Below are positions 14,350-63,715 of a stretch of 64,000 bases of DNA, in pieces. The position numbers and the translations under genes are program-made. Source of the stretch: Forficula auricularia (lineage: Eukaryota > Arthropoda > Insecta > Dermaptera > Forficulidae). The DNA is taken from NCBI GenBank assembly GCA_024734495.1, contig JALMQS010000841.1, positions 4,086,176-4,150,175 on the forward strand. The letters are read 5' to 3'. The notes beneath the pieces were generated by a model. That model did no database searches. It saw only the letters and a program-made list of their open reading frames with translations, and was not told the DNA's origin. Positions within the stretch are counted from its first letter, which is position 1; every line of letters starts with the position of its first letter.

Positions 14350-14652
14350 TCGTTAAAATATACACAATGAGGGAATTCGTGACAATTTTCTTCATAATTT
14401 TAAACCACTACAACTCTTCTCATACCGCCTTAAAGTGATTTATATAATATATATTTATATATTTATAAATTTACTACTAAGCCCATCTGTCTGATTCTTT
14501 GGAGAATCGAAACAGATGAATTTTTAGTTTTCGCTAACTTTCGCGTTCATCTAACATTAACATATAGGTACTATATGTTCAGCGAGGCTTCCGCGGATAC
14601 GTTCTATGTCATTAGAGGTTTTCGGGTTTCTCCGCGTGGGTTTGAGAGTTTT

Positions 14653-14696
14653 ACTCAACGTTTCGGCTCTCCTTTTGGAGCCATTTTCAAGAGAGG
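14653..14696 (-). ncRNA. Hammerhead-like motif, U3/A8 variant
   Basis: On the minus strand: box UUGAAAA (rc at 14684-14690), stem II GGCUCC with GGAGAGCC around an AAAA loop, then GAAAC-GUU. Positions 3 and 8 of the usual CUGANGA box are U and A, which still can pair. Stem I is about 3 bp (CUC with GAG). Activity is inferred only. Confidence 0.45.
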
Positions 14697-15063
14697 GGTG
14701 GGTGGTCTACGTGGTCTTAACCTTGTAGTCCAAGGTTCGTTTTGGAGGGTGTCTTCCGAGTGAATTTCTTCAGTCGGAAGGTTGGGTAGATTTGGATATT
14801 TAGGAAGTTTTGGGTGTTTTGTTGTTGAAGGTGTATTACTTACATTATGGTGGCTGACGTCTCGGCTGTTGCTGTCTTGAGAATGTTGGGCACTACACTC
14901 GATACGTTCACTGTCACTGTTTGTAGGCAAAACAACAAAACACCCAAAACTTCCTAAATATCCAAATCTACCCAACCTTCCGACTGAAGAAATTCACTCG
15001 GAAGACACCCTCCAAAACGAACCTTGGACTACAAGGTTAAGACCACGTAGACCACCCACCCCC

Positions 15064-15106
15064 TCTCTTGAAAATGGCTCCAAAAGGAGAGCCGAAACGT
15101 CGAGTA
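15064..15106 (+). ncRNA. Hammerhead-like motif, U3/A8 variant
   Basis: Box UUGAAAA at 15068-15074, an extra U, stem II 15076-15081 with 15086-15093, GAAA at 15094-15097, then C-GUC. Stem I CUC (15065-15067) pairs GAG (15102-15104). It mirrors the motif in the other arm, except that the triplet is GUC and not GUU. Confidence 0.45.
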
Positions 15107-15155
15107 AAACTCTCAAACCCGCGCGGAGAAACCCGAAAACCTCTAATGACTATAT

Positions 15156-15507
15156 ATATTTTAATTTATAATATAATAAAGATATTTACTAGGATATCTC
15201 TCATAGCATGATAAAAAATATTTTTTATTTTTGACTCAAAAAAATACGACTTCCCCAAAATAATCATTCGATATCTACAAATTTGAATGCCATATTTTAT
15301 TTTTCGTGAAAATAAATACATATAGCTTTGTAAATTTCAAGTTGGTAACCTATTTAATATATAAGCTACAATGCTCTGACAGATACTGTGGCATAGAGGG
15401 CACCAAAACGGAATCTTAAAAAGGGGTCAATATTAAGCCCGGTAAATTAGCTAGTTGGCAACTAAGCCAGTAGTGCCTCTTCAGTAGTGCCTCTTGAAGG
15501 ATGAGGA
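15156..15507. other. AT-rich stretch, nothing recognised
   Basis: No gene or repeat recognised up to the LINE tail. Confidence 0.4.
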
Positions 15508-15745
15508 TTTTTTTTTTAATCCAATCGAATGCAAGAAGGGGTGCACCAGTAAAGGTGCAGCTCCTATGGATGTCGAAAGACCTCTTGCATTACCGAAGAG
15601 AAGGGAAAGTTGATTAAGTGAGAGGGGTGTAGACGTAGGTGTCTTTGCACTCCGGTTTTGCAAACTAAACGACAGAACTGGCACCGAACGTGTCAAGTTC
15701 GTTTCTAAGATAGGGTTTTCTTAGAGTTCCGGGCGTTTAGAGATT
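15508..15745 (-). pseudogene. LINE 3' end (5'-truncated non-LTR retrotransposon)
   Basis: On the minus strand the sequence reads to a T run at 15508-15518, that is a poly(A) tail. The translated end includes 'SLNQLSLLFG' and 'SIGAAPLLVHPFLHSIGLKK', which also appears in the tail after the reverse transcriptase relic at 46260-46365 ('RSIGAASLLVHPFLHSIALKK'). The two are the same LINE family. Only the terminal part is present, consistent with 5' truncation during target-primed reverse transcription. Confidence 0.75.
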
Positions 15746-15779
15746 ATAATAATATATAATTATTATAATAAAAACTATC

Positions 15780-15900
15780 TGATTATTAACCGAAGAAGAT
15801 TTAGGACAATCAATGGTGGTAAATCTATCTCCAAAGTCGAAGGCAAAAATCAAATGTTTATTATATTATGAAATTCTTTATACCTATTATTCAATGAATT
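15780..15900 (+). repeat. Diverged copy of the 276-bp unit
   Basis: 'gacaatcaatggtggtaaa', 'ctatctccaaagtcgaagg' and the following AT block resemble the 13.3-14.3 kb unit ('cactcgatggtggagaag', 'tatctccggaatcgaagca'). Confidence 0.45.
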
Positions 15901-16139
15901 GTCAGATTAAAAAAAAATAATAATATTAATAAAAATTTTAAATTTTGACTATCACATCTTTTTAAAATGTAGTAAGTAATCATATAATTTTTCTTTCAAA
16001 CTTAATAAATATATCATAGATGCTTAATAGTAGATACTTAATAAATATATCACCATTAGGGCTCAGATTTTTGGGCACTAAAAATCTTTAAAATAGGCAG
16101 GCAACTAAGTAAGTACTAAAAATAACTAAAATAGGTACT

Positions 16140-16757
16140 TTTATTTTATTTTTATTTTATTTTTTTATTTATTCAATCTTTGAATTCAGCGCCCCAAAAA
16201 CATATATATACATGCAAAAAATTAGAACTACCCCAAAACTTCCCCATTTGAGGACAATTTGACTGGACTATCCGCACAAGATATTTCGACGTCTGGCTAT
16301 TGTTAACCCCAGGCAAAAGTGTCTGGCTTTTTGCAAGTATTATTAAAAACATGTAATTAAGACGCTATTAAAATCTCAACGTGAATCAAACACTTTTTTT
16401 CAAATAAAAAAATGCAACATTAGGGTTGTCTGGCTCAGTACTTACCCCCAGCTTACCCCTCCTCTAAAAGTGTCTGGCTTAGTTAATTTTTAATTTAAAA
16501 TCAACTTAATTGTCGAATAGTATTTGTTGGATTTTGAATCAAACACTTTTTGGCGAACATTTTTTAGAACTTTCTCCTATGCGCAGTAAAAAGAGAAAAT
16601 TTCGAAGTTTTTTCAGTTTGTCTTGAATATCTCTAAGACGGTTTATCAAATCAAAAAGATATTATTAAATAAATTAAATCTCTTTAAATTACCTAGAGAA
16701 TCATATAGAAATCAAGTTTCTAAGATGAGTGGATTTCATTTTATGAAAGAAAAACTG

Positions 16758-16793
<36 letters not shown>

Positions 16794-16795
16794 TA
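16140..16795 (+). repeat. Family C fragments and a (TA)n tract
   Basis: Pieces matching family C ('actaccccaaaactt' and 'caatttgactggactat' near 16230-16270; 'gaaatcaagtttcta' near 16710, also at 59691) lie among AT-rich DNA. A (TA)n tract occupies about 16760-16790. The segments are rearranged relative to the copy at 59640-60370. Confidence 0.5.
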
Positions 16796-16929
16796 TTGTC
16801 TAAAGAAACGTTAATTTATAAGAATTTTGCTGGCTTGGTGTGTACTGGATTTATTAATTTTTTATTGTTAGGATAAATAAACTGAATTTGCTTCTTTCCA
16901 GTAATTTATTTTGTTTTTCAAATGGTTAT

Positions 16930-16977
16930 TCTAAATATTTCGAGAGCGTTCTCAGCATCTCTTCCTCAGTGGAAACC
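16930..16977 (-). ncRNA. Hammerhead-like motif, left arm
   Basis: Minus strand: box CUGAGGA (rc 16963-16969), stem II GAGA-U-GC with GCUCUC, GAAA (rc 16938-16941), then UAUU. The 3' stem I strand reads UAGAA and not UGGAA, so one base pair is weakened compared with the right arm. Confidence 0.5.
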
Positions 16978-17026
16978 ACTCCCCCTGTACAAACTGATGG
17001 AGTCGGCACATTGGTGGGGGAGTGGT

Positions 17027-17072
17027 TTCCACTGAGGAAGAGATGCTGAGAACGCTCTCGAAATATTTGGAA
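17027..17072 (+). ncRNA. Hammerhead-like motif, best conserved copy
   Basis: Stem I UUCCA (17027-17031) pairs UGGAA (17068-17072). The box is CUGAGGA (17032-17038). Stem II GAGA(U)GC at 17040-17046 pairs GCUCUC at 17054-17059 around a 7-nt loop. GAAA is at 17060-17063, followed by U-AUU as the short stem III and an NUH-type cleavage triplet (AUU). Core positions C3-U4-G5-A6-N7-G8-A9 and G12-A13-A14 are all present. One extra A separates the box from stem II. AAAUAUUU is self-complementary, so a dimer could build stem III. Confidence 0.6.
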
Positions 17073-17171
17073 TAACCATTTGAAAAACAAAATAAATTAC
17101 TGGAAAGAAGCAAATTCAGTTTATTTATCCTAACAATAAAAAAAACGTTAATTAGAAATATAAGCATAAAA

Positions 17172-18720: not shown

Positions 18721-18728
18721 GAGTATAA

Positions 18729-18947: not shown

Positions 18948-19044
18948 ATTTTTAATTGCAGCTAGAGAGGAAAGTGAGTGCACCTGTATATATGTTTTAT
19001 ATATTCAAAAAATATCCCAAAATGATCGCAAATATTGATTATTC

Positions 19045-19200: not shown

Positions 19201-19516
19201 AATATTTGCTGTCATTTTAGGAGATTTTTCTGAACACCATCAATAAACTTTTTATAAGTTACTTATAAATAGTCAACAAACTGTCATAAGCTTGATATTT
19301 TCATGGTTAGTTAAAATTAAATTCATTAAAAAGTAATTTTTCACGAAAAAACGGCTTTATTAAGAAAACTTGATGCTTTAGGTATATGGACATGATATAT
19401 CGTCTTAAAGCATTTTTTACAAAGAGAAACAAAGAGGTTGTCCTCTGCTTGATGCAAATAAACATACACACATATATATCGAGATGATATATCTGTATAT
19501 ATATATTATTTATTTG

Positions 19517-19560
19517 TTTGAGACTATAGTTTCGAAGACTTGGTCTTCATCATCAGTCTT
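19517..19560 (-). ncRNA. Hammerhead-like motif, left arm
   Basis: Minus strand: CUGAUGA, an extra U, stem II GAAGAC-CAA-GUCUUC, GAAAC, UAUA, GUC. All core bases are present. Stem I next to the core is only about 2 bp, which is weak. ACUAUAGU is self-complementary and could form stem III between two molecules. Confidence 0.6.
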
Positions 19561-19570
19561 TGTGAAGAAG

Positions 19571-19615
19571 AAAGACTGATGAAGAAGACCAAGTCTTCGA
19601 AACTATAGTCTCAAA
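19571..19615 (+). ncRNA. Hammerhead-like motif, right arm
   Basis: CUGAUGA at 19576-19582, an extra A, stem II 19584-19589 with 19593-19598, then GAAAC-UAUA-GUC at 19599-19610. Core positions match the hammerhead consensus and the triplet is GUC. As in the left arm, stem I pairing beside the core is short. Confidence 0.6.
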
Positions 19616-19810
19616 CAAATAAATAATATATATACAGATATATCATCTCGATATATATGTGTGTATGTTTATTTGCATCAAGCAGAGGACAACCTCTTTG
19701 TTTCTCTTTGTGAATCAACAACTCTGCTACTCTCGGCAAAACAAAAACTTTTCAATTAAAGCATTTTTCTTTGTATTTCAACTTATTGAGTAATATACAG
19801 GGGGTCTCAT

Positions 19811-21720
19811 TTGAAATAAACTGCAACGGATCGTTGCTAAACTTTATCCAAATTCATTTGAAATATTAATATGTTTGTTCCTTTATTATTAATCAGATAT
19901 CACTTGCAATTTGTAGTTCATATTGAAATTAATTCAAAAATAATTCTCATTTAAGAGTCGAGGAATAACCATTCTACATTGGATTTTTGACGTTTCGGTT
20001 TTTATTGGTAACCATTGCTGAAGACATAGAGGAATCGACTTAAAATCAAAAATAGCCATCGATTCTCATCTAATACTTGAGGAATAACAATTCTACATTA
20101 GGTTTTTGACGTTTCGATTATTATTGGTAACCATTGCTGAAGACATGGAGGAAACGACTTAAAATCAAAAATAACGATCGATTCTTATCTAATACTAGAG
20201 GAATAACCTTATTGAATTCCATTTTTGATGTTTTGACTATTAATGAAACCTCTACTGAAAATGTAGAAGAATCGACTTAAAATCAAAAAGACTAAATTCT
20301 TTTATGGCAAACAACTCAAGCTTGAGTTGTTTACCAAAAAAGAATTTAGTCTTTTTGATTTTAAGTCGATTCTTCTACATTTTCAGTAGAGGTTTCCATT
20401 AATAGTCAAAACATCAAAAATGGAATTCAATAAGGTTATTCCTCTAGTATTAGATAAGAATCGATCGTTATTTTTGATTTTAAGTCGATTCCTCCATGTC
20501 GTCAGCAATGGTTACCAATAATAATCGAAACGTCAAAAACCTAATGTAGAATTGTTATTCCTCAAGTATTAGATGAGAATCAATCGCTATTTTTGATTTT
20601 AAGTCGATTCATCTATGTCTTCAGCAATGGTTACCAATAAAAACCGAAACGTCAAAAATCCAATATAGAATGATTATTCCTCAAGTACTAGATGAGAATC
20701 AATCGCTATTTTTGGTTTAAAGTTGATTTCTCTATGTCTTCAGGAATGGTTACTAATAAAAACCGAAACGTCAAAAATCCAATATAGAATGGATATTTCT
20801 CAAGTATTAGATGAGAATCAATCGCTATTTTTTATTTTAAGTCGATTCCTCCATGTCTTCAGCAATGGTTACTAATAAAAACCGAAACGTCAAAAATCCA
20901 ATATAGAATGATTATTCCTCAAGTACTAGATGAGAATCAATCGCTATTTTTGGTTTAAAGTCGATTTCTCTATGTCTTCAGCAATGGTTACTAATAAAAA
21001 CCGAAACGTCAAAAATCCAATATAGAATGATTATTCCTCAAGTACTAGATGAGAATCAATCGCTATTTTTGGTTTAAAGTCGATTTCTCTATGTCTTCAA
21101 CAATGGTTACTAATAAAAACCGAAACGTCAAAAATCCAATATAGAATGATTATTCCTCAAGAACTAGATGAGAATCAATCGCTATTTTTGGTTTAAAATC
21201 GATTTCTCTATGTCTTCAGCAATGGTTACTAATAAAAACCGAAACGTCAAAAATCCAATATAGAATGATTATTCCTCAAGTACTAGATGAGAATCAATCG
21301 CTATTTTTGGTTTAAAATCGATTTCTCTGTCTTCAGCAAAGGTAACGGATAAGAAAACAACGCAGTTGCTATGGTTACTCATAAAAATTCCTCCCAAATT
21401 TTTAGCATTTCACAGAGAGAAGCCTATCCATTCTTACTTAAGTTAGGTTAAATGAGGTATATTAAAACGATCAAATGAATAAATTTAAAATTTTTTTAAA
21501 AGTACTATCTTACTTTAGAGTAAAGTACTTTAAAATATAATTTTACTAAAAACTTTATTTAACCTTTTTTGTGGTCCCCAAGGTACTTAATTAGGATATT
21601 AAATTTCATCAAAATTGGTTAAGTCATTTTCAAAATATTTAGAAAAAAATAAAAAGTACCGAAATAAAGTACTAATGTTTGTGGGCCGATATGTACCAAA
21701 AACTAATCAGCGCTTCATTT
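19811..21720 (+). repeat. Family G copy 1: palindrome plus tandem array
   Basis: It starts 'aaataaactgcaacggatcg'. A palindrome is centred at 20320/20321 (AAGCTT) with arms of about 370 bp, then a tandem array (20407-21340) and a unique tail to 'gggccgatatgtaccaaaaa'. The 'gacgtttcgg' and 'ccgaaacgtc' boxes are present in every unit. A second copy starts 2038 bp later, and an inverted third copy lacking most of the array is at 31645-32105. Confidence 0.8.
20407..21340 (+). repeat. Tandem array, about 119-bp period, about 7-8 units
   Basis: 'cgaaacgtc' recurs at about 20526, 20645, 20764, 20883, 21002, 21121 and 21240. Each unit includes 'ctagatgagaatcaatcgct', 'tatgtcttcagcaatggtta' and 'aaaaatccaatatagaatg'. 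The first units are shared with the right arm of the family G palindrome. Confidence 0.85.
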
Positions 21721-21848
21721 TGTTAAACTAATGGTAGGTTTTCAATTTCATTTCAATCGGTGCAACGGTGTGGAAAAAATCGTGGGCCAAAAAAGCGATA
21801 ACATCCATCATACATACATCCATCCATACATCCATACGCACGCACTAA

Positions 21849-22956
21849 ATGAAATAAACTGCAACGGATCGTTGCTAAACTTTATCCAAATTCATTTGAA
21901 ATATTAATATGTTTGTTCCTTTATTATTAATCAGATATCACTTGCAATTTGTAGTTCATATTGACATTAATTCAAAAATAATTCTCATTTAAGAGTCGAG
22001 GAATAACCATTCTACATTGGATTTTTGACGTTTCGGTTTTTATTGGTAACCATTGCTGAAGACATAGAGGAATCGACTTAAAATCAAAAATAGCCATTGA
22101 TTCTCATCTAATACTTGAGGAATAACAATTCTACATTAGGTTTTTGAAGTTTCGATTATTATTGGTAACCATTGCTGAAGACATGGAGGAAACGACTTAA
22201 AATCAAAAATAACGATCGATTCTTATCTAATACTAGAGGAATAACCTTATTGAATTCCATTTTTGATGTTTTGACTATTAATGGAAACCTCTACTGAAAA
22301 TGTAGAAGAATCGACTTAAAATCAAAAAGACTAAATTCTTTTTTGGTAAACAACTCAAGCTTGAGTTGTTTGCCATAAAAGAATTTAGTCTTTTTGATTT
22401 TAAGTCGATTCTTCTACATTTTCAGTAGAGGTTTCCATTAATAGTCAAAACATCAAAAATGGAATGCAATAAGGTTATTCCTCTAGTATTAGATAAGAAT
22501 CGATCGTTATTTTTTGATTTTAAGTCGATTCCTCCATGTCTTCAGCAATGGTTACCAATAATAATCGAAACGTCAAAAACTAATGTAGAATTGTTATTCC
22601 TCAAGTATTAGATGAGAATCAATGCTATTTTTGATTTTAAGTCGATTCCTCTATGTCTTTCAGCAATGGTTACCAATAAAAACCGAAACGTCAAAAATCC
22701 AATATAGAATGATTATTCCTCAAGTACTAGATGAGAATCAATCGCTATTTTTGGTTTAAAGTTGATTTCTCTATGTCTTCAGGAATGGTTACTAATAAAA
22801 ACCGAAACGTCAAAAATCCAATATAGAATGGATATTTCTCAAGTATTAGATGAGAATCAATCGCTATTTTTTAGTTTAAAGTCGATTCCTCCATGTCTTC
22901 AGCAATGGTTACTAATAAAAACCGAAACGTCAAAAATCCAATAGAGAATGATTATT
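21849..22956 (+). repeat. Family G copy 2, cut by assembly gap
   Basis: Direct duplicate of 19811-20950, starting with the same 'ctgcaacggatcgttgct' block 2038 bp downstream (19821 to 21859). The palindrome centre at 22359/22360 is the exact reverse complement of that in copy 1 over at least 55 bp. The copy runs into the N gap within its tandem units, so the array is probably longer than shown. Confidence 0.85.
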
Positions 22957-23056
22957 NNNNNNNNNNNNNNNNNNNNNNNNNNNNNNNNNNNNNNNNNNNN
23001 NNNNNNNNNNNNNNNNNNNNNNNNNNNNNNNNNNNNNNNNNNNNNNNNNNNNNNNN
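22957..23056. other. Assembly gap, 100 N
   Basis: One hundred N bases with a tandem array on the left and a family A internal block on the right. Its true size is unknown. Frames crossing it are artefacts. Confidence 0.99.
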
Positions 23057-25597: not shown

Positions 25598-25604
25598 AAA
25601 ATAC

Positions 25605-29211: not shown

Positions 29212-29880
29212 GCTAATACATGGAGCACTGAGCCATGCACCGTACTTTTTTGCTTCAGTTAAAAGCGATATATTTTATTTTTAATTCAAAAAGGTCGATT
29301 TTTATTTGGATTCAGAATTAAATATGTCTGCTAAGAATCTAGGGGCGATAGAAGTGAAACTTTTTTCTATGGATATATTTACTTTATAATGGGTGGAGTT
29401 CCACAAATTTTAATCCTCCACCCGGATTCAGTTCGGAGGGTGATGAGAGTTAGCTGAAGAGTGTCTAGAGAGCATGTATAGGGTTGCTGGGGTGAATGAT
29501 GTTCGGAGGTGGGTCTAGGGGTGAAGGATTAGGTCAGTGGGATGAATGGGATTAGAGGAGGCTAGCCTCGCCGGCGGGTCTCTTGCTACACTCCTCTAAT
29601 TCCCGACCATCCTACTGACCCAATCCTTCAGTGGGATGGATGGGAATTAGAGGAGGGTAGCTAGCAAGAGACCCGCCGGCGAGACTAGCCTCCTCTAATC
29701 CCCATCCCACTGACCCTATTCTTCACCCTTAGACCCACCTCCTATCATCATTCACCCCGCCAACCATATACATGTCCTCTGGATACTCTCCTCTTCACCT
29801 AACCCTTATCACCCACAGAACCCCACAAATCCGGTTGGGGGATTAAAATTTGTGAACTTCCACCCTATTGGAAAAAATCA
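29212..29880. repeat. Family H head and GC-rich foldback
   Basis: 29212-29330 matches the family H head at 727-800. A GC-rich inverted repeat follows, with arms about 29400-29632 and 29640-29870 ('ccacaaattttaatcc' against 'ggattaaaatttgtg'). The inner arms contain 'ctagcaagagacccgccgg' or its complement, related to the 'ctagcaagagggccgcc' hairpin that ends the elements at 5180 and 33889. The foldback therefore appears to be two inverted H ends. Confidence 0.7.
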
Positions 29881-30418
29881 GATTAACCCATTTTGCTCAA
29901 CTCCATCGATATATTTATTTAGCCTTACGCCGACTTTTTCCCTGAAGAAGAATACAATTGAGGATATAAAACAAAATATATTACACCGAGATTTTGGGCA
30001 ATATTTTATTTCCGTCTATACCTAGAGAATGTAATTAAATAAAAAAAATTTATTCTAATCACAATGTTTCGATCACAACTTTTAAAAATATCCTAAATGA
30101 AAAATATGTGTTGAGGTAATTCTTTCGGGGTGAACCACTATCTAGAAATTTAAAAAATTGTTAAAATTTGGAATAGAAACTTGCATTACAATGCATTGTT
30201 TTGTCAAAAACTATTCAGCCACAAAACTTTAACCAATTTATCGTTGGTATGTATTTGCTTTTTTTGTAAATCGCTACCACAACTACCACTTAACAGATAA
30301 AATTACTTCAAAAAGTATTGGGTACGCAGTTGGCTTTAAAAAAGTACATAGAATAAAACCTCACTATATTCACTAGTACAATAAAACTATTCTACCATCA
30401 ATAACTTCCAATAATTTT
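29881..30418. other. AT-rich stretch, nothing recognised
   Basis: No gene or known repeat recognised. Confidence 0.4.
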
Positions 30419-30806: not shown

Positions 30807-30814
30807 TGTTTATT

Positions 30815-40972: not shown

Positions 40973-41084
40973 ATGTTTTAAATTTTATTTTTCGTTGTTT
41001 TGTGGAAAATATAGTACTAATTAAAGGAATCGTAGGGAGTTGGACTTGACTTTTAATTAAATATAAAGTTTTTTATTTAAATAG

Positions 41085-41126
41085 GCCAAGCGTTTTGTTG
41101 CTGGTTCGCAACTTCGTCAGTGGCTC
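41085..41126 (-). ncRNA. Hammerhead-like motif, damaged
   Basis: Minus strand: CUGACGA (rc 41114-41120), an extra A, stem II GUUGC-GAACCA-GCAAC, then AAAACGCU in place of GAAACGUU. G12 is mutated and the cleavage triplet lost, so this copy should be inactive. Confidence 0.4.
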
Positions 41127-41344
41127 ATTTATTAAACTTATTAGTCTGGGGTTTTGACTAAGAGAAAAACCATTTTCAAAAAGTATCCCTCCAAATCACT
41201 CAAATTTATCAAATAATATAAAACATAAACCATTTAAAACAATGTAATTGTTTCCCGTTAAAATAATTAAAACAATCAAATTGAACAAAGAATTTCTTGT
41301 TTTTTTCTTAGTCAAAACCCCAGACAAATAAGTTTAATAAATGA

Positions 41345-41384
41345 GCCACTGAAGAAGTTGCGAAGCAGCAATGAAAGGTTTGGC
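41345..41384 (+). ncRNA. Hammerhead-like motif, intact core
   Basis: Stem I GCCA (41345-41348) pairs UGGC (41381-41384). CUGAAGA is at 41349-41355, then an extra A, and stem II GUUGC (41357-41361) with GCAAU (41368-41372). GAAA is at 41373-41376, followed by G-GUU. All core residues are present. Confidence 0.55.
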
Positions 41385-41397
41385 CTATTTAAATAAA

Positions 41398-41905
41398 TAA
41401 GATGGTGTGTTCTGATGTAGCCATCCAATTGACTTTATCTAACAACCTGGCCCCTCACTTATATTTAATATTGAATAAAATTATTTATAATTTTGTAGGG
41501 GGGGGGGTTAGTTTTTGCATTTTTAGACTTCTGGGGTTCCACTGATTGTGTATACAAAATTCGATTGAGTTTGCTCAAATGGCGTAGATTTTTAATTTTT
41601 ATTCTCCCCTCTACCCCCCTTAATTTTGAGTCGATATGCCCCAAAATCTAATCAGCTCTTGATCTCAATTGACCAAAACTAGGTCTGAAATTTGGTTTCG
41701 ATATTCATACTAGTTTTTGAGCTAGCTCGTCCACAAAAATTTGGTAACTCACAGACTAACTAACAGACTAACAGACAGAATAACAACCAGACTATGGTAA
41801 TTAACAGACATTTTGACAAAACAATTATTATCTCGAAAAATGTAATTTTTTCGATGTTCACCTATTAGGGCATTTTTGTAGAGCGAAATGCCATGGTTTC
41901 GATTA
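41398..41905 (+). mobile_element. Family A element, right-truncated
   Basis: Left end 'gtgttctgatgtagccatcc' present. The element proceeds to 'gaaatgccatggtttcg' and stops, lacking the last 100 bp or so including the right inverted end. Confidence 0.75.
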
Positions 41906-42269
41906 GAATCAACTTCTAATCTGAAACATACATGTATTCTAACTAGGATTATGTGCCACATTTCTTGTCATAGAAGTCTGCAGGAAAAGATAAACGAAGT
42001 ACCTATTTGTCCCTTCCTCCGGGATGGAGTAATAAATGTTCATTAATGTTGTGAACAGCGACAAATTCGTTTACTCTGAGTGTCGAGTATATTTAGGTAT
42101 ATAATCTACTTGGGAAAAATGATCCAAAAATATATAAATAAAAATTGATGTAATTATTTGTTTTCAAGCTTGGTTGGAAAATGTTCTGCGGGCGCCAATA
42201 GTTAACTGTTATAATATTCTTCCGGCTTTAAGAAGATGGATAGTGTCATTATGTAATTAATAAAGTAAA
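41906..42269. other. AT-rich stretch, nothing recognised
   Basis: No gene recognised. Confidence 0.4.
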
Positions 42270-42361
42270 TACAATTTTGAAAAACTTTAGAAACTTTTTA
42301 AAATTTAAAATATATAATACCAGAAAGGTTTCACAAAAATAAAAGATAAGATGCTTGTTTA

Positions 42362-42412
42362 GCACGACTCTATATATATTTCGGGGCATAAGCCCATCTT
42401 AAGGAGTTCACA
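42362..42412 (-). ncRNA. Hammerhead-like motif, one core change
   Basis: Minus strand: CUUAAGA (G5 replaced by U; rc 42397-42403), stem II GGGC-UUAU-GCCC, GAAA, UAUAUAUA, GAGU pairing ACUC as stem I. Loss of G5 should abolish activity. Confidence 0.4.
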
Positions 42413-42478
42413 GAGGAAACTGAATACAAAAATACATAAATGCTTTACAAGTATTTTTGTATTCAGTTTCCTCTGTGA

Positions 42479-42522
42479 ACTCCTGAAGATGGGCTTATAC
42501 CCCGAAATATATATAGATGAGT
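42479..42522 (+). ncRNA. Hammerhead-like motif, intact boxes
   Basis: Stem I ACUC (42479-42482) pairs GAGU (42519-42522). CUGAAGA is at 42483-42489, stem II GGG (42491-42493) pairs CCC, and GAAA is at 42504-42507, followed by UAUAUAUA. Bases before stem I read GAU and not an NUH triplet, so cleavage is doubtful here. Confidence 0.45.
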
Positions 42523-42825
42523 CGTGCTAAACAAGCATCTTATCTTTTATTTTTTGTGAAACCTACCTAGTACATTAAATTTTAACAAGTGTCTAAAATT
42601 TTTCAAAATTTTCTTTTTTTTATTTAAAATGTTTCACCAAGAACCCACACCATACTCCCTTAACATAAAAATAATTTTTATAAAAAAAAAAAAAAAAAAA
42701 ACTAGAGCCAATATTCCAAAATCATTCATAGTTTCATAAATTGTTGCCATAAAATTACTCGAAATTATTTATATCAAAGGCAACAAAACCACTGATGACC
42801 AGTGTTATTAATAAGAATTCTCATT

Positions 42826-45316: not shown

Positions 45317-45393
45317 ATAATTAATACTTTTAATAGATTAAAAATTCACAGTTCATTGGACAATGTTTTTTATTGAAGCTTTTATTCAATTTT

Positions 45394-45432
45394 TGTACAA
45401 CGTTTCGTCTTTCTCGAGACTTTTTCAAGCAC
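45394..45432 (-). ncRNA. Hammerhead-like motif, U3/A8 variant
   Basis: Minus strand: UUGAAAA (rc 45422-45428), an extra A, stem II GUCUC/GAAAGAC-type pairing, GAAAC-GUU, with GUGC and GUAC able to form stem I. Confidence 0.45.
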
Positions 45433-45589
45433 TCAATTGGTTAGAGCAACATTGGCTGAGATAACAATAAAAATAATTGAGACAGTAGAATTTTTTTGTT
45501 TTAGATTGATACAATCGTAGGTTATTAAAGAACCAACAGAATTGTTGAATTTCAAAAGGAACAAACCACAAATACAATATTCAATGAAA

Positions 45590-46382
45590 TAAAATAAGTC
45601 TCTAATTTCTAGGCGCGAAAATAAAGATTTTCCTGATATTCACTTCGATTCGAATACCCTGAAAATGTGTGACAGCCTATCCATGTTGGGCGTCTCTGTC
45701 GCATCTGACCCGTCTTGGAATGAACACATCTCCTCTGTGGCGAAATCTGCAGCAAGGAAGATTGGCTTCTTATTCAGGTCCAAGAGATTTTACAAACCCC
45801 CACAACTTCTCACAATCTACAAGGCCCAAATCCGCCCCTGTCTTGAATCATCTATAGAGAGGAGCCTCAAAATATTCTCTTGCTACCCTGGATGCAATTC
45901 AGAAACGAGCCGTCAGACTAATTGACGATTCTACCCTCACCGACTCCCTCGACTGGCTGGCTCATCGAAGAAATGTCTCTGCCCTTTCCCTTTTCTATAG
46001 ATACTATCACGGCAGGTGCTCTGATGAGATAAAATCAATAATTCCCCCCAAAGCATGCTTTGCACGTAGCACGCGTTTTGCCGACTCCCAACACTCTTTC
46101 GCGGTCAAATTAGAAAAGTGCCGGACCACTTCATTCGCGAATACATATATCCCCATGACTTCAAGGAACTGGAACTCTCTCCCAGCCTCCATCTTTCCCA
46201 GCACCTATGATCTTCAAACCTTCAAAACCGGGGAGCATAGACACCTACGACTACACCCTCTCACTTAATCAACTTTCCCTTCTCTTCGGTAATACAAGGG
46301 TCTTTCGAGATCCATAGGAGCTGCATCTTTACTGGTGCACCCCTTCTTGCATTCGATTGCATTAAAAAAAAAAAAAAAAAAG
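45590..46382 (+). pseudogene. CR1/Jockey-type LINE reverse transcriptase tail, broken
   Basis: Translation from about 45599 gives 'KDFPDIHFDSNTLKMCDSLS', 'MLGVSVASDPSWNEHISSVA' and 'RKIGFLFRSKRFYKPPQLLT', ending 'IYKAQIRPCLE'. This is the C-terminal part of a non-LTR reverse transcriptase (L-G-V ... W-x-x-H-I ... Y-K-x-x-I-R-P). A frameshift near 45850 moves to 'LATLDAIQKRAVRLIDDSTL' and later 'SRNWNSLPASIFPSTYDLQT'. It ends in an A run (about 46365-46382). The tail matches the LINE end at 15508-15745. The 5' part, including the catalytic FADD-type motif, is missing. Confidence 0.85.
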
Positions 46383-46463
46383 TCTAGATGGATTTGACAG
46401 ATGACAGATATAAAAAATTCTACTATGTCTCAATTATTTTTATTGTTATCTCTAACCAATTAG

Positions 46464-46501
46464 GTGCTTGAAAAAGTCTCGAGAGAGACGAAACGTTGTA
46501 C
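46464..46501 (+). ncRNA. Hammerhead-like motif, U3/A8 variant
   Basis: Stem I GUGC (46464-46467) pairs GUAC (46498-46501). UUGAAAA is at 46468-46474, then an extra A. Stem II GUCUC (46476-46480) pairs GAGAC (46485-46489) around GAGA. GAAA is at 46490-46493, then C-GUU. ACGU is self-complementary. Confidence 0.5.
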
Positions 46502-46679
46502 AAAAATTTAATAAGAGCTTCAATAAAAAACATTGTCCAATGAACTCTGAATTTTTAATCTACTAATTATAATGGACATTAATCAACATAATTTATCAAT
46601 ACTTTTAATTTTTAAAATCGACAATAATAATATTTTAATTTATTTTTTGATCAAACTTTTACTCAGATTGTATTTGAAA

Positions 46680-47369: not shown

Positions 47370-48375
47370 GAAAGATGAAGAAAAATGCTTTAAGACGATA
47401 TATCATGTCCCTATACCTAAAACAGTAATTCTCAACCACTGTGCCGCGAAATTCTTGAAGTGTTCCGCCAAATTTTAGAAATTCAAACAATAAAAATTAT
47501 TGTACTTTTATCTAATGAGTTATTATTTTTTCCAGTTCAGCCATTCAATTCACATAATTTAATGTAAATCTAAATAAATAAGCTTTAAAAATAGATACAT
47601 TTTATATATATCGGCTTAGCCATTTTTTAAACAAAGTACTTTGTTTTCGCGTTTAGGGGTTGGGTCGATTTTGCTGCACGCAAATGTTGTTCAGTTTGCT
47701 ATTTACTTGCTTGTTGTGTGGTTGAATTTATAAATTTATATATTTGCTATTCAGTATTGTGTTCTCAAACTTAAATAAAACATATTCAAAGGCATGATTC
47801 GTCTTTTTTAATAATAATTTTTTTTTGACAAAATTATTTTTATTTTAAAATTTTATTGTTAGTGTGCCGCCAAATTTTGAAATTGTTAAAAGTGTGTCGC
47901 AACAAAAAAAAGGTTGAGAATCACTGACCTAAAACATCAAGTTTTCATAATAAAGTCGGTTTTTCGTGAAAACTAACCATGGAAATATCAAGATTAGAGA
48001 GTTTGTTGGCTATTTATAAGTAACTCATAAACAGGTTATTGACGATGTTCAAAAAAATCTCCCAAAATGACCGCAAATATTGATTATTCAAACGAAGTTC
48101 TTATGAAATTATTTATTTTGTACTATAAGAACTTCGTTTGAATAATCAATATTTGCGATCATTTTGGGAGATTTTTTTGAAAATCGTCAATAAATTGTTT
48201 ATAAGTTACTTATAATTACTCAACAAACTGTTATAAGCTTGATATTGCCATGGTTAGTTAAAATTAAATTCATTGAAATGTAATTTTTCACGGCTTTATT
48301 AAGAAAACTTGATGTATCGTCTTAAAGCATTTTTCTTCGTCTTTCAATTTATTGAGTAATATAGGGGGGGTCTCA
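47370..48375. repeat. Family I foldback, copy 2
   Basis: Palindrome centred near 48112 with arms of about 230-270 bp ('gcaaatattgattattcaaa' on both sides). The left arm is interrupted by a hAT MITE (47423-47926). The right part ends 'ggtctcatttgaaa'. It is paralogous to 19010-19800. Confidence 0.8.
47415..47934. mobile_element. hAT MITE, 504 bp, 8-bp target duplication
   Basis: Ends 'cagtaattctcaacc' and, inverted, 'cagtgattctcaacc' are typical hAT terminal inverted repeats. The octamer 'acctaaaa' is duplicated at 47415-47422 and 47927-47934. Subterminal 'gtgccgc' repeats occur at both ends ('tgtgccgcgaaatt', 'gtgtgccgccaaatt'). The body is non-coding. Family I copy 1 provides the empty site. 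Confidence 0.9.
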
Positions 48376-49236
48376 TTTGAAAAAACGAACTTTTGACCCC
48401 TTTTATGAATAACGGAATAATATGGAGTCGATTTTTCGGCGTAAATTAAATACTTCGGATGTGTCTAAGCTACCCCCAAAATATCAACTTTTCATGAATT
48501 GAGAGCACTAAATTATTTAAGTTTAATTAGCACCATGTTTTGGACCATATTTAATACAAATTATTTTTTATCTCGAAAACCGATAGGATAGGTATAGGAC
48601 AATATTAACAAAAAGTATTTTAATAAAAGGGCGGTTTTAAAAACGTGTTAATATACGGGGTGTTCCATTAAAAAAAAATAAAGTTGTTACGACATTTCGA
48701 TGGATGCCGAAACGTCACAATGCTGAAAATATTTTAGATCGATAGAACAGGTAAGAAAATGTAATGTGCTAAATTTTCAGAAAAATCCGGCCTTCCGTTT
48801 TCTATAAACGTCTAACGTGCCATCGACCGTGAATCACTCTGGATATATAACACACAATATTAAAATAATACACACGACGTATAGTAGTTCAAAATGCTAA
48901 AAAAGAGGCAAAATATTACGAATCAGGGCACTTTATAGGGACAAAAGCATGGAACTAGAAAGAAAGATATAAAATAGTATTTCACAAAAATCAAGGTATA
49001 CATACCTATAGTTGAATTTGATGGCGACGAATTTCGAAAAAGAGTTTTCAAGAGATCCAACCGTCCACCCCCGGGGGGGGGGTAGTTAATTTTCGGGGGT
49101 GGGGGCGCTAGTTATCCACCGAAGAGTTAGAGGAATATAGATAATTATACCCCTAAATTTATATACATATCCGATGGGCCTTTAGCCAGATACTATTTAG
49201 TCAAATATCTAAAACATTTTCATAGTAAAATTTCAA
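48376..49236. other. AT-rich DNA with a possible MITE end
   Basis: 'acggggtgttccattaaaa' at 48656 resembles the end of a common insect MITE type, and 'ccgaaacgtcaca' follows at 48708. No second end was found. A G run lies at 49073-49081. Confidence 0.35.
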
Positions 49237-52363: not shown

Positions 52364-53846
52364 CCTAAGTTTGTGGTCCGGGACTTATAGCTCAAATAGT
52401 TACAGCTTTCCCGGCTCTACCTAGTTTAATATATATATTTTTTTTAATTTAAAATTATTTATGAAGCTCATTATTGAGAACTTGGAAATTTTTAAAATGT
52501 TGCTAGGTTTTGCACTAAAAATTGCCAGGGGAAGGAGAAAAATATACCAGGGGAAGCAGAAAAATATACTGCGAAACGTAGCAACATTTTATAAATTTAA
52601 CTTTCAATTTATTTTAAGTCCAAGTTGAAAATAATCAGCCACATAAGAAATCAACTGGCGTGTTCACCACACGACTTTCACATTTTCGTAATTCGAAAAT
52701 TACAAAATCGGATTAAAAATTTTACACAACTAATAACTCATGACATTTGATAAATGCCCTAATCTTGAAAAAAATCGTTAAAGCTTTTTTTGAGAAAATC
52801 AAAAAAAAACAAAAATTCTTTCATGTAAATGTCCACTTCCGGTTTTCCAATTTCAACTAAAAACTTGCTGTACTCTTTCTAGCCTATATCGAGCTTAAGT
52901 TTCGAATTTCCTATCTCTGAGACTTATGGTTGCGAAACGCAGGGGGTGGGGGTACATACGTACGTACTGACCAATGGATTTTTGGCCTCTGGGGACCACA
53001 ATTTTCGGTTTTATGTCCTAAACCAGATTTTCAACTATTAAGGGCATCGATTCCTTCCACCTAGAAGTTACAAATGAAATTAACTTTTTTAATCTCTGAG
53101 ATACAAGCTCTCAAAGAGTCATGACCCAGACAGGCCATTGCAATACTTCCCCATTATATTCTATGAATATAAATGTGAAAGTAAAAAATTTCAACATGAA
53201 CGATAACAACACCAAATTATTTATGAAGTTGTATCTCCTTTCGGTAAATTGGTGACGCCACTGATTTTATATATCATTTAGGCTATATATTTTAATGTTT
53301 AAGTTGTAGGTAAGTATGTAAGAGCACAGTTTGTCATTCTGAAATAATAGCTCTTGTACTACTATAATCATTCTTCTCTTAAAATTGAGGTAGAAAATAA
53401 CCATTGGAAACTGTTTCAATTATTATGAATGTGATCACCCTCACCATACTATCAGATATCTTATATTTTGATTAAGTTTAAGATTAATGAGGGAAAAATA
53501 TAATTTTTTATGAAGATGGGGTTGAAGACTGGTTGAATCGATTAAAAATATCCATCCTTCGAGTTATATATTCAAATGAACAGCGCGTCAAATCAGATTT
53601 CCTAGATGAAATAAAGATAGAAGTTGGAATGAATATAAAATAAAAAATTATGATAATCAACTTTTAATGGATTTTTATCTTAGCAGCCTGAATAATGTTT
53701 TAGAACATAAAATTGTTAATATAATCAATAAAAATTAGCAAATAAATTGTTTCGGCGCAAAGAAATAAAGCTTAAGAAACAGTGATCAATTTGAATTTTG
53801 AATTAAAGTTGATCAGCTTCTCTGACTAAAACAAAGCTAAAACTCT
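52364..53846. other. Mostly unique AT-rich DNA
   Basis: Includes the dispersed repeat at 52890-53000 and an internal duplication 'agccagggga agga'-type near 52526-52560 ('ccaggggaaggagaaaaata' and 'ccaggggaagcagaaaaata'). No gene seen. Confidence 0.4.
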
Positions 53847-54036
53847 TAGGGCCGGTTGTATGTCGCAAAGTAAATATTTTTTACAACTAACAAAGGGTAG
53901 ATGGTAAATGGAGGGACTGGGATGGCCAATCAGATGACAGGCACTTTCACTGATTGGCCATCCCAGTCCCTCCATTTACCATCTACCCTTTGTTAGTTGT
54001 AAAAAGCATTTACTTTGCGACATACAACCGGCTCTA
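53847..54036. mobile_element. Near-perfect palindromic MITE with TA duplication
   Basis: Ends 'gggccggttgtatgtcgcaa' and, inverted, 'gagccggttgtatgtcgcaa'. The arms continue through 'ggtagatggtaaatggaggg' and 'actgggatggccaatcag' to a loop of about 20 bp. TA flanks on both sides (53847-53848 and 54035-54036). It is 186 bp and nearly all stem. TA targeting suggests a mariner- or ISL2EU-like mobiliser. Confidence 0.85.
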
Positions 54037-54776
54037 AGAGTATAGATCAGTGGTAAAGATGAGGAAAACTACAGTAAGCTAAATAAAATCCACGGTGGTC
54101 GAATTAAGGAACTTTATTTAATTTGATTTAAAATGTAAATTATGTTAAATTATTTAACTATACTCTATGTACTAGATTAAAAAAATGGAATAATTTTAAA
54201 AATGATTTAATTGGGTATTTATAGTAACAAAATTATAAAGGTATTGACAAATTGTAAAGAGAAATAGATTATTTTCAAAATAATCGAGTAATCTTTTGAA
54301 GTTCAATACGATCAAATTGTGAAAATAATAGTGAAATTCAAAAAATGATAAAAAATGGTCGACCGAAATTGACTATAAATAAAACGAAGCTAATCATCAT
54401 GAGCGGAATTGTAAATAATTCACCATAAATAAAGAACTTTTTCAATTTTTAAAACTATAAAAGCTTTTTAACTATATTTAGTAAAAAATTTTTGTTTAAT
54501 TAGTAAGGGCGTAATTTTGTAATTAATTTTTCAACTAGTTGTTATTTTCAAGCTTCTACTCCATTAGGTACACTCACACTTTTTTTTAAATAATTGCATA
54601 ATAAAACCTGTAGGCTAATTTTTGAATAATGCTTATTTTCCGTGTATATTTAACCTTGAAAATCAATAAAAGAAAACCAATATCATTTTATAAATGAAAT
54701 AAATTTAGATTCATTCTTAAAATAAGTAGTTATTGCTCTAATGTCTGAGACCTTATGGCTTCCATCCCCAGTGCAA
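54037..54776. other. AT-rich stretch, nothing recognised
   Basis: No gene recognised. Confidence 0.4.
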
Positions 54777-54814
54777 TCAATTCCATTGAGATGAACATAA
54801 GAAAGCTGCTAGTG

Positions 54815-54910
54815 GTACAGTGTCTAGAGCACTATCAGTCATCCATCTATAGACTAACCACGGTCTATGTTGTTTAATTTCAGTGATCATGGAGGAACCA
54901 GTATTTTCAA
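54815..54910 (-). repeat. 5S rRNA-like sequence (SINE3-type head or pseudogene)
   Basis: Minus strand reads 'gatcactgaaattaaacaac', 'ccgtggttagtctatagatg', 'gatgactgatagtgctc'. This lines up with the internal control region of 5S rRNA (GATCACCGAAATTAAGCAAC ... GGTTAGTACTTAGATGGGTG). It is too diverged, and lacks the 5S ends, to be a functional gene. It could be the head of a 5S-derived SINE or a decayed 5S pseudogene. The open frame across it is incidental. Confidence 0.6.
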
Positions 54911-55359
54911 CATGCCAAGGCCGTTGACGTACCTGTAGTATCGAAATTGAAATACTGTCCAAAATAAAACGAGGTGATTCTAATAAAAGAAAAGGCTTTG
55001 AGAAAAAAGGTGGAATGTATTTCCGTTGACTATTGACCTTGGAAATATCTTTAGATTTCCTTAGCAAAGAGAGACAGCGCTAGGTAGTGTAAGATTAATA
55101 GTTAATATTATGTTCATTCTTTAGATTTTGAAGTTTAGATACATGAGAAAGGCTTAGTTACTCAGTTAGGTATATTTTACATACCACCCTCATTTTTTCA
55201 GTCAATTATTCGTCAAATGTTTTTGTTTCCCTTTGTATAGCAACCTAAGAATTATGTTATTAAACAGCTGTTTTGGTTCTATTTGCCTCTTTTTCTGAGA
55301 ATTATAATAAAAAATTTTCAAGTATTTGGGTACAGGATAAACCACGTGAATAATAACGA
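54911..55359. other. AT-rich stretch, nothing recognised
   Basis: No further feature recognised beyond the 5S-like block. Confidence 0.4.
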
Positions 55360-59409: not shown

Positions 59410-59575
59410 TTTTACAAAATTTCGTGACAGAACATTGTCAAAAATGAAAAAAAAAGGTAAAACAAAAATCTCATTTTGGGGTTTTTTTTTCTTATAATTT
59501 GAAAACTATCAACTTTTCGTAAATAATCTTCCTTTTCAAAATGAAATTTCATAAAATTTCCTACAAAGTATATGA
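59410..59575 (-). repeat. Family C fragment, inverted
   Basis: 'gacagaacattgtcaaaaat' and 'gaaaactatcaacttttcgt' are the complements of family C core blocks. It lies about 450 bp from a plus-strand copy. Confidence 0.65.
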
Positions 59576-59639
59576 TCCGAATCCTCAAAAGTGTCATGGA
59601 AAACGATGGATATCTATAAATCTAGGAGTTTTATAAAAA

Positions 59640-61285: not shown

Positions 61286-61512
61286 CTGTAACATCTGTGA
61301 ATAAGTGTGTAAGTCCCTTTTATCAAACTTTACAGGGGACCAATTTAAAAGTTTAGACAGCAAAAAATCTTTAAAATAATTCAGAATTTCTACTATCCCT
61401 CCTACGGTCTAGACACTTATTCACAATGTGCCCAACATCAGGGCATTCCTTTCTGTGGAGTTACTCAATTTTTCACAAAAATCGACTTACACACTTATTC
61501 ACAGTTACAATT
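61286..61512. mobile_element. Small MITE
   Basis: Inverted ends 'tgtgaataagtgtgtaagtc' and its complement near 61484-61505 ('gacttacacacttattcaca'), with an additional internal 'gacacttattcacaatgt' at 61414. Non-coding, about 225 bp. Confidence 0.65.
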
Positions 61513-61957
61513 ATTCAATTTGACAGCGATTGGGTGTTGAGCGTTTCATAGAAGTGATGCTTTAGGGAGTATTATTGATTTTAATTCGTTGGAATATATA
61601 ACACAGAGAAAGCGCAAAAACGGTTCTAGATGGACCAGGTAAGTTAAATAAAGCTGAATATTTTATTGGTTTTAATGGTCTCCGATGAATTTAATCAAGG
61701 GTGGAAAGAGAGTGCGTGCACTCAGCTTAATAACCTACTATTAATGAAAAAGCTGCCAATCCCTGTCCTAGATTAAACTACGGTCTGTACAGTTAAGGTG
61801 AAACTTAATAAAATCGCAGATGTTAACGAATTGACAAGAATTAGTCAAAACGTATTACAAGATAAATATGTATTTTGAATCAATCCTAGACATATAATAG
61901 GTAGATAATATCCCTTATTTTGAGTATTTTCTAATTTTTACGCTCCCAGGGGCTCAT
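61513..61957. other. AT-rich stretch, nothing recognised
   Basis: No gene recognised. Confidence 0.4.
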
Positions 61958-62492
61958 ATTGTTCGAAATAAATAAAAAAAAATATCTCCCAAGTTTCAAC
62001 CCCCTATCTCAATTTTAACCTGTGCCTCAGAGCGATGTAAGTTTCCCATCTAAATAAAATGGGGTTTTTGGCATTGAACGATCAATTTTTTATTCGGACC
62101 AAAGCAATAGTTTAAAAAATTTGAAACTCTGTAGACTTTATCTTTATAATAGTACCTAGCTACCCTTCAGAATTTTTACAGATTTGTAGCTATTATAATT
62201 TTGGAGTCTATAACTTACTAACACTAAGATATGGCAGTATTTTATCTAGCTGTAACTCAAAAATTATAAAAACTAAAAATCTGAAAAAACTCTGAAGGAT
62301 ACCTACTATTATAAGGGTAAAGTCTACTAAATTTTTTGAAATATTACTTTGGCCCGAATAAAAAATTAATCGTTCAATGCCAAAAACCCCATGTTATTTA
62401 GATGGGAAACTTGCATCGCTGTGAGGGTCAGGTTAAAATTGAGATAGAGACTTGAAACTTGGAAGATTTTTTTTTTTATTTATTTCGAACCA
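61958..62492. mobile_element. Foldback element, about 230-bp arms
   Basis: Arms at about 61960-62190 and 62260-62490. Outer blocks 'gttcgaaataaataaaaaaa' and its complement, inner 'tttttggcattgaacgatca' and 'tcgttcaatgccaaaaaccc'. Non-coding. Confidence 0.8.
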
Positions 62493-62549
62493 TAGCGTAA
62501 ATATTCGAAAATACGCAAAATAAGGACCACCCTAGTAGATATATATGAC

Positions 62550-62925
62550 GTGGTCCCTTGGTGAAACAGGTCATATCGGGTAATGCCAATATATTTCAGA
62601 AAAATATTCCTGAAATATAACAATAATATTACAGTGATATTATCGTAATAATGCGGGAATGCCACTCTGTAATATTTCGGCACTATTACATATTAACTAA
62701 CATATTATTGTAATATTGCAGAAATTCCTTGGCATTAACTGTAATATACGAGTATATATGTTAGTTAATATGTTATAGTGTCGTAATATTCCAGAGTATT
62801 ATTCCCTCATTATTACAATAATATGATTGTAATATTATTGTTATAGTATTTCAGGAATATTTTTCTGAAATATATTAGCATTACACGATATGATGTGTTT
62901 TACCAAGTGACCTCGACACATACAT
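62550..62925. mobile_element. Foldback element rich in TAATATT
   Basis: Arms at about 62555-62705 and 62755-62920 ('ggtaatgccaatatatttca' against 'tgaaatatattagcattaca'). Very AT-rich, with many short inner palindromes. It directly follows the previous foldback. Confidence 0.75.
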
Positions 62926-63205
62926 AGACCAGATAATTTTGATTAATAAATTAAATGAATTTTCATAATTTATTTTATCCCAGATAGCACACTGGCTCTT
63001 GAAGATGGCTTATTTAGCTCTTATTGTCTTTAAGATATCTATGTACAAGATATTTAGTTGCTTAGAAGACATTTACTGGAGCGAGCATACTATCAGGAAT
63101 GGTTCTCGAATAATATAATAATGAACAACCTTTTTTACATTATAAGAACAAATTGAAAATTTATTTTTGCCGAGATTAGCAGAATTTTTATAAATTGAAG
63201 GAGAC

Positions 63206-63367
63206 AATAAAGGAGTGTGTCTTGTGCTGGAATTATAAATTTTTAATTTATTAATAAGGAGACTATAGTTTCGAGAGCTTTGCCCTCTTTATCAGTCTAT
63301 TACAAATGATTCACAGGAATTAATGTGTGTAAATTTATAATTCCAGCATAAGATACACTCTTTTATT
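63206..63367. mobile_element. Hammerhead-containing foldback element 8
   Basis: Short arms 63206-63246 and 63327-63367 ('tgtgtcttgtgctggaatta' against 'taattccagcataagatac') enclose a single hammerhead-like motif in the loop. Unlike the other elements the motif is present once. No clear target duplication. Confidence 0.6.
63258..63300 (-). ncRNA. Hammerhead-like motif with G8 to A change
   Basis: Minus strand: CUGAUAA (rc 63289-63295), an extra A, stem II GAGGGC-AAA-GCUCUC, GAAAC-UAUA-GUC (rc 63261-63272). The 3' half is identical to element 3. C3 opposite A8 is a mismatch, so activity is doubtful. Stem I may extend as UAAUA with UAUUA beyond a small internal loop. Confidence 0.45.
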
Positions 63368-63479
63368 GTATTTCAATTATTGTTGGCTTTGAGGTCTTTG
63401 CTCAAATAAATTTTTCATCGTTAGAACTGTTTTTGAAAAATTAAAAAAAAAACAATTAAAGTATTGGAATAAAATAGTC

Positions 63480-63715
63480 TAGTCCGACAGGGGGCGCTGA
63501 GGTCGTCAGTGTGCTTGTTTTTTGACTGGACTGTACATGGAGTCTATATAAGCCTGACCGACACGTGTTTGGCTCAGTTAACCTATAATCGGAGTGGGTG
63601 CTCAACTGCTCATACTTGAGAACGATCGCACAATAGATCGATCGAAACGTTGTAATTTTATTGTATTATTTGTTCGTGTTCAATAAATAATTATAACTAA
63701 TTATGTGTGATTTAA
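63480..63715 (+). mobile_element. Promoter-bearing retroelement terminal repeat
   Basis: Order on the plus strand: 'cagggggcgctgagg' (63488; CTCF-like core), TATA box TATATAAG (63545-63552), initiator-like TCAGT (63574-63578), hammerhead-like motif (63612-63655), AATAAA (63682-63687). This is a compact transcription unit like an LTR or a Penelope-type pLTR. Element boundaries were not found and the window ends soon after. Confidence 0.55.
63612..63655 (+). ncRNA. Hammerhead-like motif, U3/A8 variant, downstream of a TATA box
   Basis: Stem I UAC (63613-63615) pairs GUA (63652-63654). UUGAGAA is at 63616-63622, then an extra C. Stem II GAUCG (63624-63628) pairs CGAUC (63639-63643). GAAA is at 63644-63647, then C-GUU. 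The same U3/A8 variant as in elements 1 and 5. Confidence 0.45.

Follow-up and report, generated by a model that had tools for sequence, protein, structure and literature searches.

A 64,000-nucleotide (nt) stretch of the Forficula auricularia genome (GCA_024734495.1, contig JALMQS010000841.1, positions 4,086,176 to 4,150,175 of the forward strand; here called the window) contains seven palindromic elements with hammerhead-like motifs, designated A, B, C, D, F, G, and H. It is quite probable that A, B, C, and G, and probably also D, F, and H, were inserted by Penelope-like machinery, as head-to-head pairs of pseudo-long terminal repeats (pseudo-LTRs) without an open reading frame (ORF). More tentatively, the palindromes could be fossils of two-sided target-primed reverse transcription with asymmetric use of start sites, a reading that we hold to be possible rather than probable.

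The window has an A+T content of 68%, and the seven elements are found among about two dozen palindromes. Elements A, B, C, D, F, and G carry one motif per arm, H carries a single motif, and a further motif, I, is a solo copy. The six two-armed palindromes listed in an earlier note on this DNA were thus borne out. All six have their left copy in minus and their right copy in plus orientation; the motifs thus face outward, and the outer ends of every element correspond to the same end of the arm, presumably the start of reverse transcription. Element A (14570-15155) consists of a left arm (14608-14826, minus strand) with a hammerhead at 14652-14696 (-) and a right arm (14931-15148, plus strand) with a hammerhead at 15062-15106 (+). 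The arms of B (whole element 16806-17153) lie at 16858-16985 and 17016-17142, within 16858-17142, with hammerheads at 16929-16975 (-) and 17026-17072 (+), and those of C (19405-19768) occupy 19418-19714, with hammerheads at 19521-19562 (-) and 19570-19611 (+). The arms of D extend over 41069-41400, with hammerheads at 41084-41126 (-) and 41343-41385 (+). Element F also has a motif in both arms, as described before, at 42370-42409 (-, with G5 mutated) and 42477-42516 (+); its inverted arms were placed here at 42259-42624 instead of 42270-42665. Element G (45323-46609) has its arms at 45335-46566 and its hammerheads at 45394-45434 (-) and 46462-46502 (+). At its center lies a polyA-tailed insert (approximately 45602-46383) with two overlapping ORFs of 110 and 136 amino acids. 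By eye, the insert looks like the 3' terminus of a non-LTR retrotransposon (long interspersed nuclear element [LINE]); Pfam gave only a sub-threshold ALKBH8_N match for these ORFs. Element H, noted earlier as a single-motif relative near 63.2 kb, indeed has one motif (63260-63301, -), and is itself a partial palindrome (63183-63415). Motif I (63610-63656, +), an addition to the earlier list, follows a TATA-like box, TATATAAG, recognized by eye at 63545, at a distance of about 70 nt; the segment 63480-63700, with box and motif in this order, resembles a promoter-bearing pseudo-LTR. The arms fall into eight groups of differing sequence that have the core in common, in agreement with the "several lineages" proposed before, and C and H share one sequence block despite belonging to separate groups.

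The ends of the elements provide the most direct evidence on how they were inserted. Direct repeats of 11 bp in B (AAACGTTAATT, 16806-16816 and 17143-17153), 13 bp in C (TTAAAGCATTTTT, 19405-19417 and 19756-19768), and 12 bp in G (AATACTTTTAAT, 45323-45334 and 46598-46609) were found by the end-repeat test, and A and H have repeats of 7 bp (ACTATAT at 14570-14576 and 15149-15155, and AATTTTT, respectively). Among 400 random pairs of ends, repeats of at least 10 bp occurred in 2 (lengths 19 and 20), of at least 8 bp in 20, and of at least 7 bp in 66, so that the repeats of A and H are weak on their own. Comparison of arms and ends revealed one-sided tails of 31 nt in A (14577-14607, left arm only, minus strand), 41 nt in B (16817-16857, left arm only, minus strand), 41 nt in C (19715-19755, right arm only, plus strand), and 31 nt in G (46567-46597, right arm only, plus strand), and a possible tail of 30 nt in H (63379-63408). 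For C, a second copy of the host sequence at approximately 48120-48420 lacks the element, and comparison with this empty site (near 48322) defines the insertion as the two arms, the 41-nt tail, and one of the 13-bp duplicates. Element C therefore has Penelope-type ends, i.e., a tail on one arm and a target-site duplication; the case for such ends is strong for B and G and weaker for A and H. Tails of 31 to 45 nt and repeats of 7 to 13 bp had been reported earlier for several elements; B, C, and G bear such ends out, A and H do so weakly, and D and F do not. The supposed tail and 8-bp repeat of D were rejected, since this sequence recurs at six further sites in the window, and in part at a seventh, as the start of a different repeat. 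This repeat, which starts approximately with AATAAG.TGACGTGTTCTGATGTGGCCATCC, was mistaken for a D tail at 41401-41460 and also lies near 7666, 8000, 28455 (minus strand), 37083, 38520, and 49236. All five elements that show a repeat (A, B, C, G, and H, two of them weak) have a tail at exactly one end, a count that is biased, as tails on both ends would appear only as longer arms.

The combination of a minimal hammerhead, inverted repeats, a tail of about 30 to 40 nt at one end, and duplications of variable length supports the Penelope-type origin suggested earlier well, and each of these ingredients is already known for Penelope-like elements (PMC3846280, PMC7761336, PMC11167929). For rotifers, Penelope pseudo-LTRs are described that can be inverted, one with a 31-bp tail, and that are accompanied by duplications of 8 to 10 bp (PMC3846280). 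We infer from these likenesses that Penelope machinery was the inserting agent. Alternatively, the palindromes might be foldback or miniature inverted-repeat transposable element (MITE)-type DNA transposons, in which a transposase moves the long terminal inverted repeats and the hammerhead letters are a coincidence. Such families are common in animals, and many palindromes of the window lack the motif; this explanation nevertheless appears improbable, given the asymmetric ends with a tail on one arm, the repeats of 11, 13, and 12 bp in B, C, and G, the position of the tail inside the insertion at the empty site of C, and the covariation of the hammerhead pairs across arms of different sequence.

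That covariation was assessed in 14 aligned arms comprising 154 pair cells, with registers slid by up to 3 positions and column shuffles as controls. The hammerhead pairs, the core pair C3-G8 included, covary across the arms: standard pairs fill 83.8% of the 154 cells, compared with 31.2 to 45.2% in the slid registers, and 54 cells are altered on both sides, compared with a mean of 18.7 in the column shuffles; as the two arms of an element are not independent, these figures represent eight groups and not 14 samples. Two of the five covariation measures, namely both-side-changed pairs and further pair types, did not exceed the shuffles. Pairing amounts to 92.9% of the cells in stem II, 73.8% in stem I, and 71.4% in stem III, and pair 10.1-11.1 is GC in 13 of 14 arms and GU in the remaining one. 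The core pair C3-G8 is CG in eight arms and UA in five (groups A, G, and I) and is broken in one (H, C3 with A8); it thus forms a standard pair in 13 of 14 arms and is changed on both sides in five, although the UUGANAA pattern used in the earlier note already includes the U3-A8 change, for which the arms were therefore partly selected.

At the level of individual letters, the core described before (CUGANGA or UUGANAA, stem II, and GAAA) was recovered in the arms, with UUGANAA (U3-A8) in those of A and G and single-letter deviations in left F (G5 to U) and left D (G12 to A). A feature absent from that description is the single additional nucleotide that separates A9 from stem II in 14 of 14 arms (A in eight, U in five, and C in one, motif I). 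The plus hammerhead of chrysanthemum chlorotic mottle viroid (CChMVd) naturally has an extra A after A9, and U is described as raising the cleavage rate and C or G as detrimental (PMC3705267). Twelve of 14 arms, all but those of D, have a self-complementary box reaching from A15.1 to the cleavage position (ACGU, AUAU or longer, ACUAUAGU), which would suit cleavage as a dimer; published descriptions of minimal Penelope hammerheads mention the lack of helix III and a possible cleavage in dimeric form (PMC7761336, PMC6155905). In C and H, this stem III box measures 8 nt and stem I, as judged by eye, only 2 bp. The arm motifs are putative ribozymes. In unconstrained folding of one arm per element, evaluated as z scores against shuffles, the right arms of B, D, and G formed stem I, an open core of 8+8 nt, and stem II (z of -2.1, -2.0, and -2.6, respectively).

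Whether such motifs exceed chance expectation depends on how strictly they are described. A strict descriptor (CTGANGA, i.e., CUGANGA in RNA, followed by 0 to 2 nt, a stem of at least 4 bp, and GAAA) gave five exact matches in the 64 kb, all in B, C, and D, versus none in each of six dinucleotide shuffles. With one mismatch there were nine matches versus 2 to 8 in the shuffles, and with two mismatches 54 versus 22 to 43; the loose descriptor alone is thus weak, and the strict form alone discriminates. The string CGAAACGTY occurred 23 times, versus a mean of 0.46 in 100 shuffles, with 14 of the 23 occurrences inside a 119-bp repeat array. This region, at 19943-22956, comprises two near-identical palindromic arrays of units of about 119 bp with outward-facing CGAAACGTC (14 copies) and is directly followed by a run of 100 N (22957-23056). 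The arrays were rejected as hammerheads: CUGANGA is missing from them, although CGAAACGTC and a stem II-like hairpin are present, and their E values with a covariance model built from the 14 arms (approximately 0.04 to 0.35) were no better than that of a match at 52468 (E of 0.04).

This model recovers its own members at E values of 1.3e-8 to 9.9e-5, which is not evidence. It yielded one new weak copy, a decayed solo motif at 6100-6144 (E of 0.003) with GAAACGTCGG at its end and U4 changed to G, and weak matches in the 119-bp arrays and elsewhere. The Rfam hammerhead models matched neither the window (E up to 5) nor three arms (E up to 10), where only sub-threshold matches, mostly to microRNA precursors, were obtained. 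For comparison, a generic hammerhead pattern (CUGANGAW...GAAACGUY) was found at 14 loci in viral contigs (L001 to L014). Loci L001 to L008 and L010 to L014 resemble phage DNA as judged by eye, and no Penelope relative was recognized in them, no protein-library search having been made. Among these controls, which were picked by pattern and eye, L002, L007, L013, and L014 gave no Rfam hammerhead at the gathering threshold, and L007 and L013 gave none at E up to 10; the Rfam null result is thus uninformative and carries no weight. L007 folds as a textbook three-stem hammerhead with an energy no better than shuffles (z of -1.0), and L008 has three matches to the model. The pattern of elements C and H had no match in the viral contigs, and element A had none in phage records.

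None of the stop-to-stop ORFs in the window reaches 200 amino acids. There are 160 of at least 60 amino acids, 65 of which were listed and 60 of these scanned with Pfam; none of the 60 reached a curated cut-off. No transposase domain exceeded the cut-off among them, which speaks against DNA transposons, but no reverse transcriptase (RT) was seen either. The earlier note had named two findings that together would count against a Penelope origin, a lack of covariance-model support and parent elements with a transposase. As it turned out, Rfam did not discriminate, and the scan revealed neither a transposase nor an RT. Since neither an RT nor a GIY-YIG domain was seen, the elements are classed as Penelope derivatives and not as full Penelope-like elements. 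Elsewhere in the window, a sub-threshold 5S rRNA-like match on the minus strand (54814-54928; 28.9 bits, cut-off 38) is possibly a 5S-derived short interspersed nuclear element.

Several observations weigh against insertion by Penelope-like machinery or against the arm motifs as hammerheads. The scanned ORFs lack RT and GIY-YIG endonuclease matches, and D and F lack duplications in the end-repeat test, the ends of F showing no flush duplication. The arms were selected using stem II pairing and, in part, the U3-A8 change. The predicted folds of the remaining arms depart from the hammerhead: F has stem II within an open core but a differing outer helix (z of -0.9), the core of A is partly closed and its hammerhead stem I is not in the minimum-energy fold (z of -1.7), a helix invades the core in the default folds of C and H (z of -2.6 and -1.8), and I lacks stem I (z of -0.3). 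Furthermore, repeats and tails were detected in control palindromes without the motif, of which 14 were tested, two arrays and low-complexity palindromes (e.g., at 131 and 5013 and at 50.4 and 59.7 kb) being left out. Control J (29372-29917) has a 10-bp repeat, GATATATTTA, and a one-sided tail of 29 nt without a hammerhead; control K (53842-54041) has an 8-bp repeat and a 34-nt tail; and two more have 7-bp repeats with tails of 15 and 34 nt, the remaining 10 of 14 having repeats of 6 bp or less. The tail anatomy is therefore not exclusive to the hammerhead elements. J is possibly a relative that has lost the motif or carries a different one. The repeat and tail of K, whose ends we take to resemble those of a MITE, were treated as chance, repeats of at least 8 bp having occurred in 20 of the 400 random pairs. 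Finally, as regards two-sided priming, according to a model of 2013, head-to-head pairs originate through self-priming with an antisense template (PMC3846280).

If the elements are of Penelope origin, the chance that they arose by two-sided priming is, in our estimation, a little short of even. In the proposed sequence of events, each arm would run outward from an internal 5' part through the minimal hammerhead without a stable stem III to the start site of reverse transcription. The GIY-YIG/RT protein of the element would make staggered cuts in the two strands of an AT-rich target and so give rise to the target duplication, and both cut ends would prime reverse transcription at one of two neighboring start sites in the element RNA, one yielding the tail and the other none, before the two outward-ending cDNAs are joined in the middle. 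Two-sided priming would be the simplest explanation of a tail on exactly one end, and it has an in vitro precedent: purified Penelope protein cuts and extends both target strands, and reverse transcription starts from two adjacent sites that bracket the tail (PMC11167929). For the Anolis Poseidon element, the same source places the start of the ORF at stem II, with C3 and G8 preceding the start codon, and the commonest reverse-transcription start 111 to 118 nt into the ORF, the tail being the stretch between the two start sites (PMC11167929). In element A, an ATG is made up of A9, the extra U, and G10.1. In the right arm, it opens a short basic frame, MAPKGEPKRRVKLSNPRGETRKPLM, which is interrupted by a stop in the left arm. 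By the coordinates, 77 nt separate the left-arm ATG from the end of the arm and 108 nt from that of the tail. The hammerhead would belong to the parental RNA and is probably a passenger within the palindrome, because a through-transcript folds back and pairs the motif with its own antisense; for A, B, C, D, and F, 69 to 90% of a transcript of the whole element is predicted to be paired.

Self-priming or a template jump of a single cDNA, proposed for rotifer Penelope elements on the basis of palindromic junctions (PMC3846280), could likewise have generated inverted Penelope pairs and is a serious, if less than even, possibility. The arms of A, B, and C are 96 to 99% identical, as a single copying event would give, whereas those of D, F, and G share only 86 to 91% identity over the aligned length with gaps counted, though age could explain this difference. 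Self-priming alone does not predict a tail on only one outer end, and the extension of both target strands by the purified protein (PMC11167929) likewise argues against it.

The earlier note had called the elements retrozyme-like. A retrozyme origin would mean units that are excised by their hammerheads, circularized, and reinserted by Penelope machinery. The motifs resemble type I hammerheads, the arms are non-coding, and Penelope elements have been proposed to mobilize animal retrozymes (PMC7229834). The retrozymes described there are tandemly repeated, bear canonical type I hammerheads, and give circular RNAs of about 170 to 400 nt (PMC7229834). The designation is nonetheless unsupported, because the motifs are inverted: one transcript contains one motif and its antisense, and excision of a unit from between two ribozymes of the same sense is impossible within any single transcript. 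As the stem III box is moreover minimal and not canonical, we consider a retrozyme origin highly unlikely.

In the literature searched, we found no account of ORF-less head-to-head hammerhead pairs from several sequence groups in one locus; we do not claim a first report. The insertion mode of Penelope-like elements and the role of their minimal hammerheads are called open questions in the sources consulted (PMC11167929, PMC7761336), and ORF-less pairs with tails, duplications, and one empty site offer natural readouts of both insertion ends. Comparison of arms across genome copies would allow two-sided priming to be tested against self-priming, and the ribozyme core itself offers a variant that can be tested, the U3-A8 pair of three sequence groups. 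If the palindromes are indeed fossils of two-sided priming, the locus records, in several sequence groups, an integration step that the literature searched describes only in vitro.

Among known systems, the pseudo-LTRs of Penelope/Poseidon elements are similar in having inverted copies, a tail of about 31 nt on one arm, variable duplications, and a minimal hammerhead near the ORF start, to which the frame of element A beginning at stem II corresponds; they differ in that no ORF or RT was seen between the arms here. Pairs of solo pseudo-LTRs with captured DNA in Adineta vaga (PMC3846280) likewise flank non-Penelope DNA together with a target duplication, as G does, whereas the insert of G looks by eye like a later LINE insertion and not like captured DNA. 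Animal non-LTR retrozymes share the non-coding nature and the type I-like hammerhead; the elements described here are inverted and not tandem, and their motifs are minimal and not canonical. The CChMVd hammerhead (PMC3705267) is alike in its extra A, here also U, between A9 and G10.1; there, it serves as a viroid replication ribozyme, whereas here stem III consists only of a self-complementary box.

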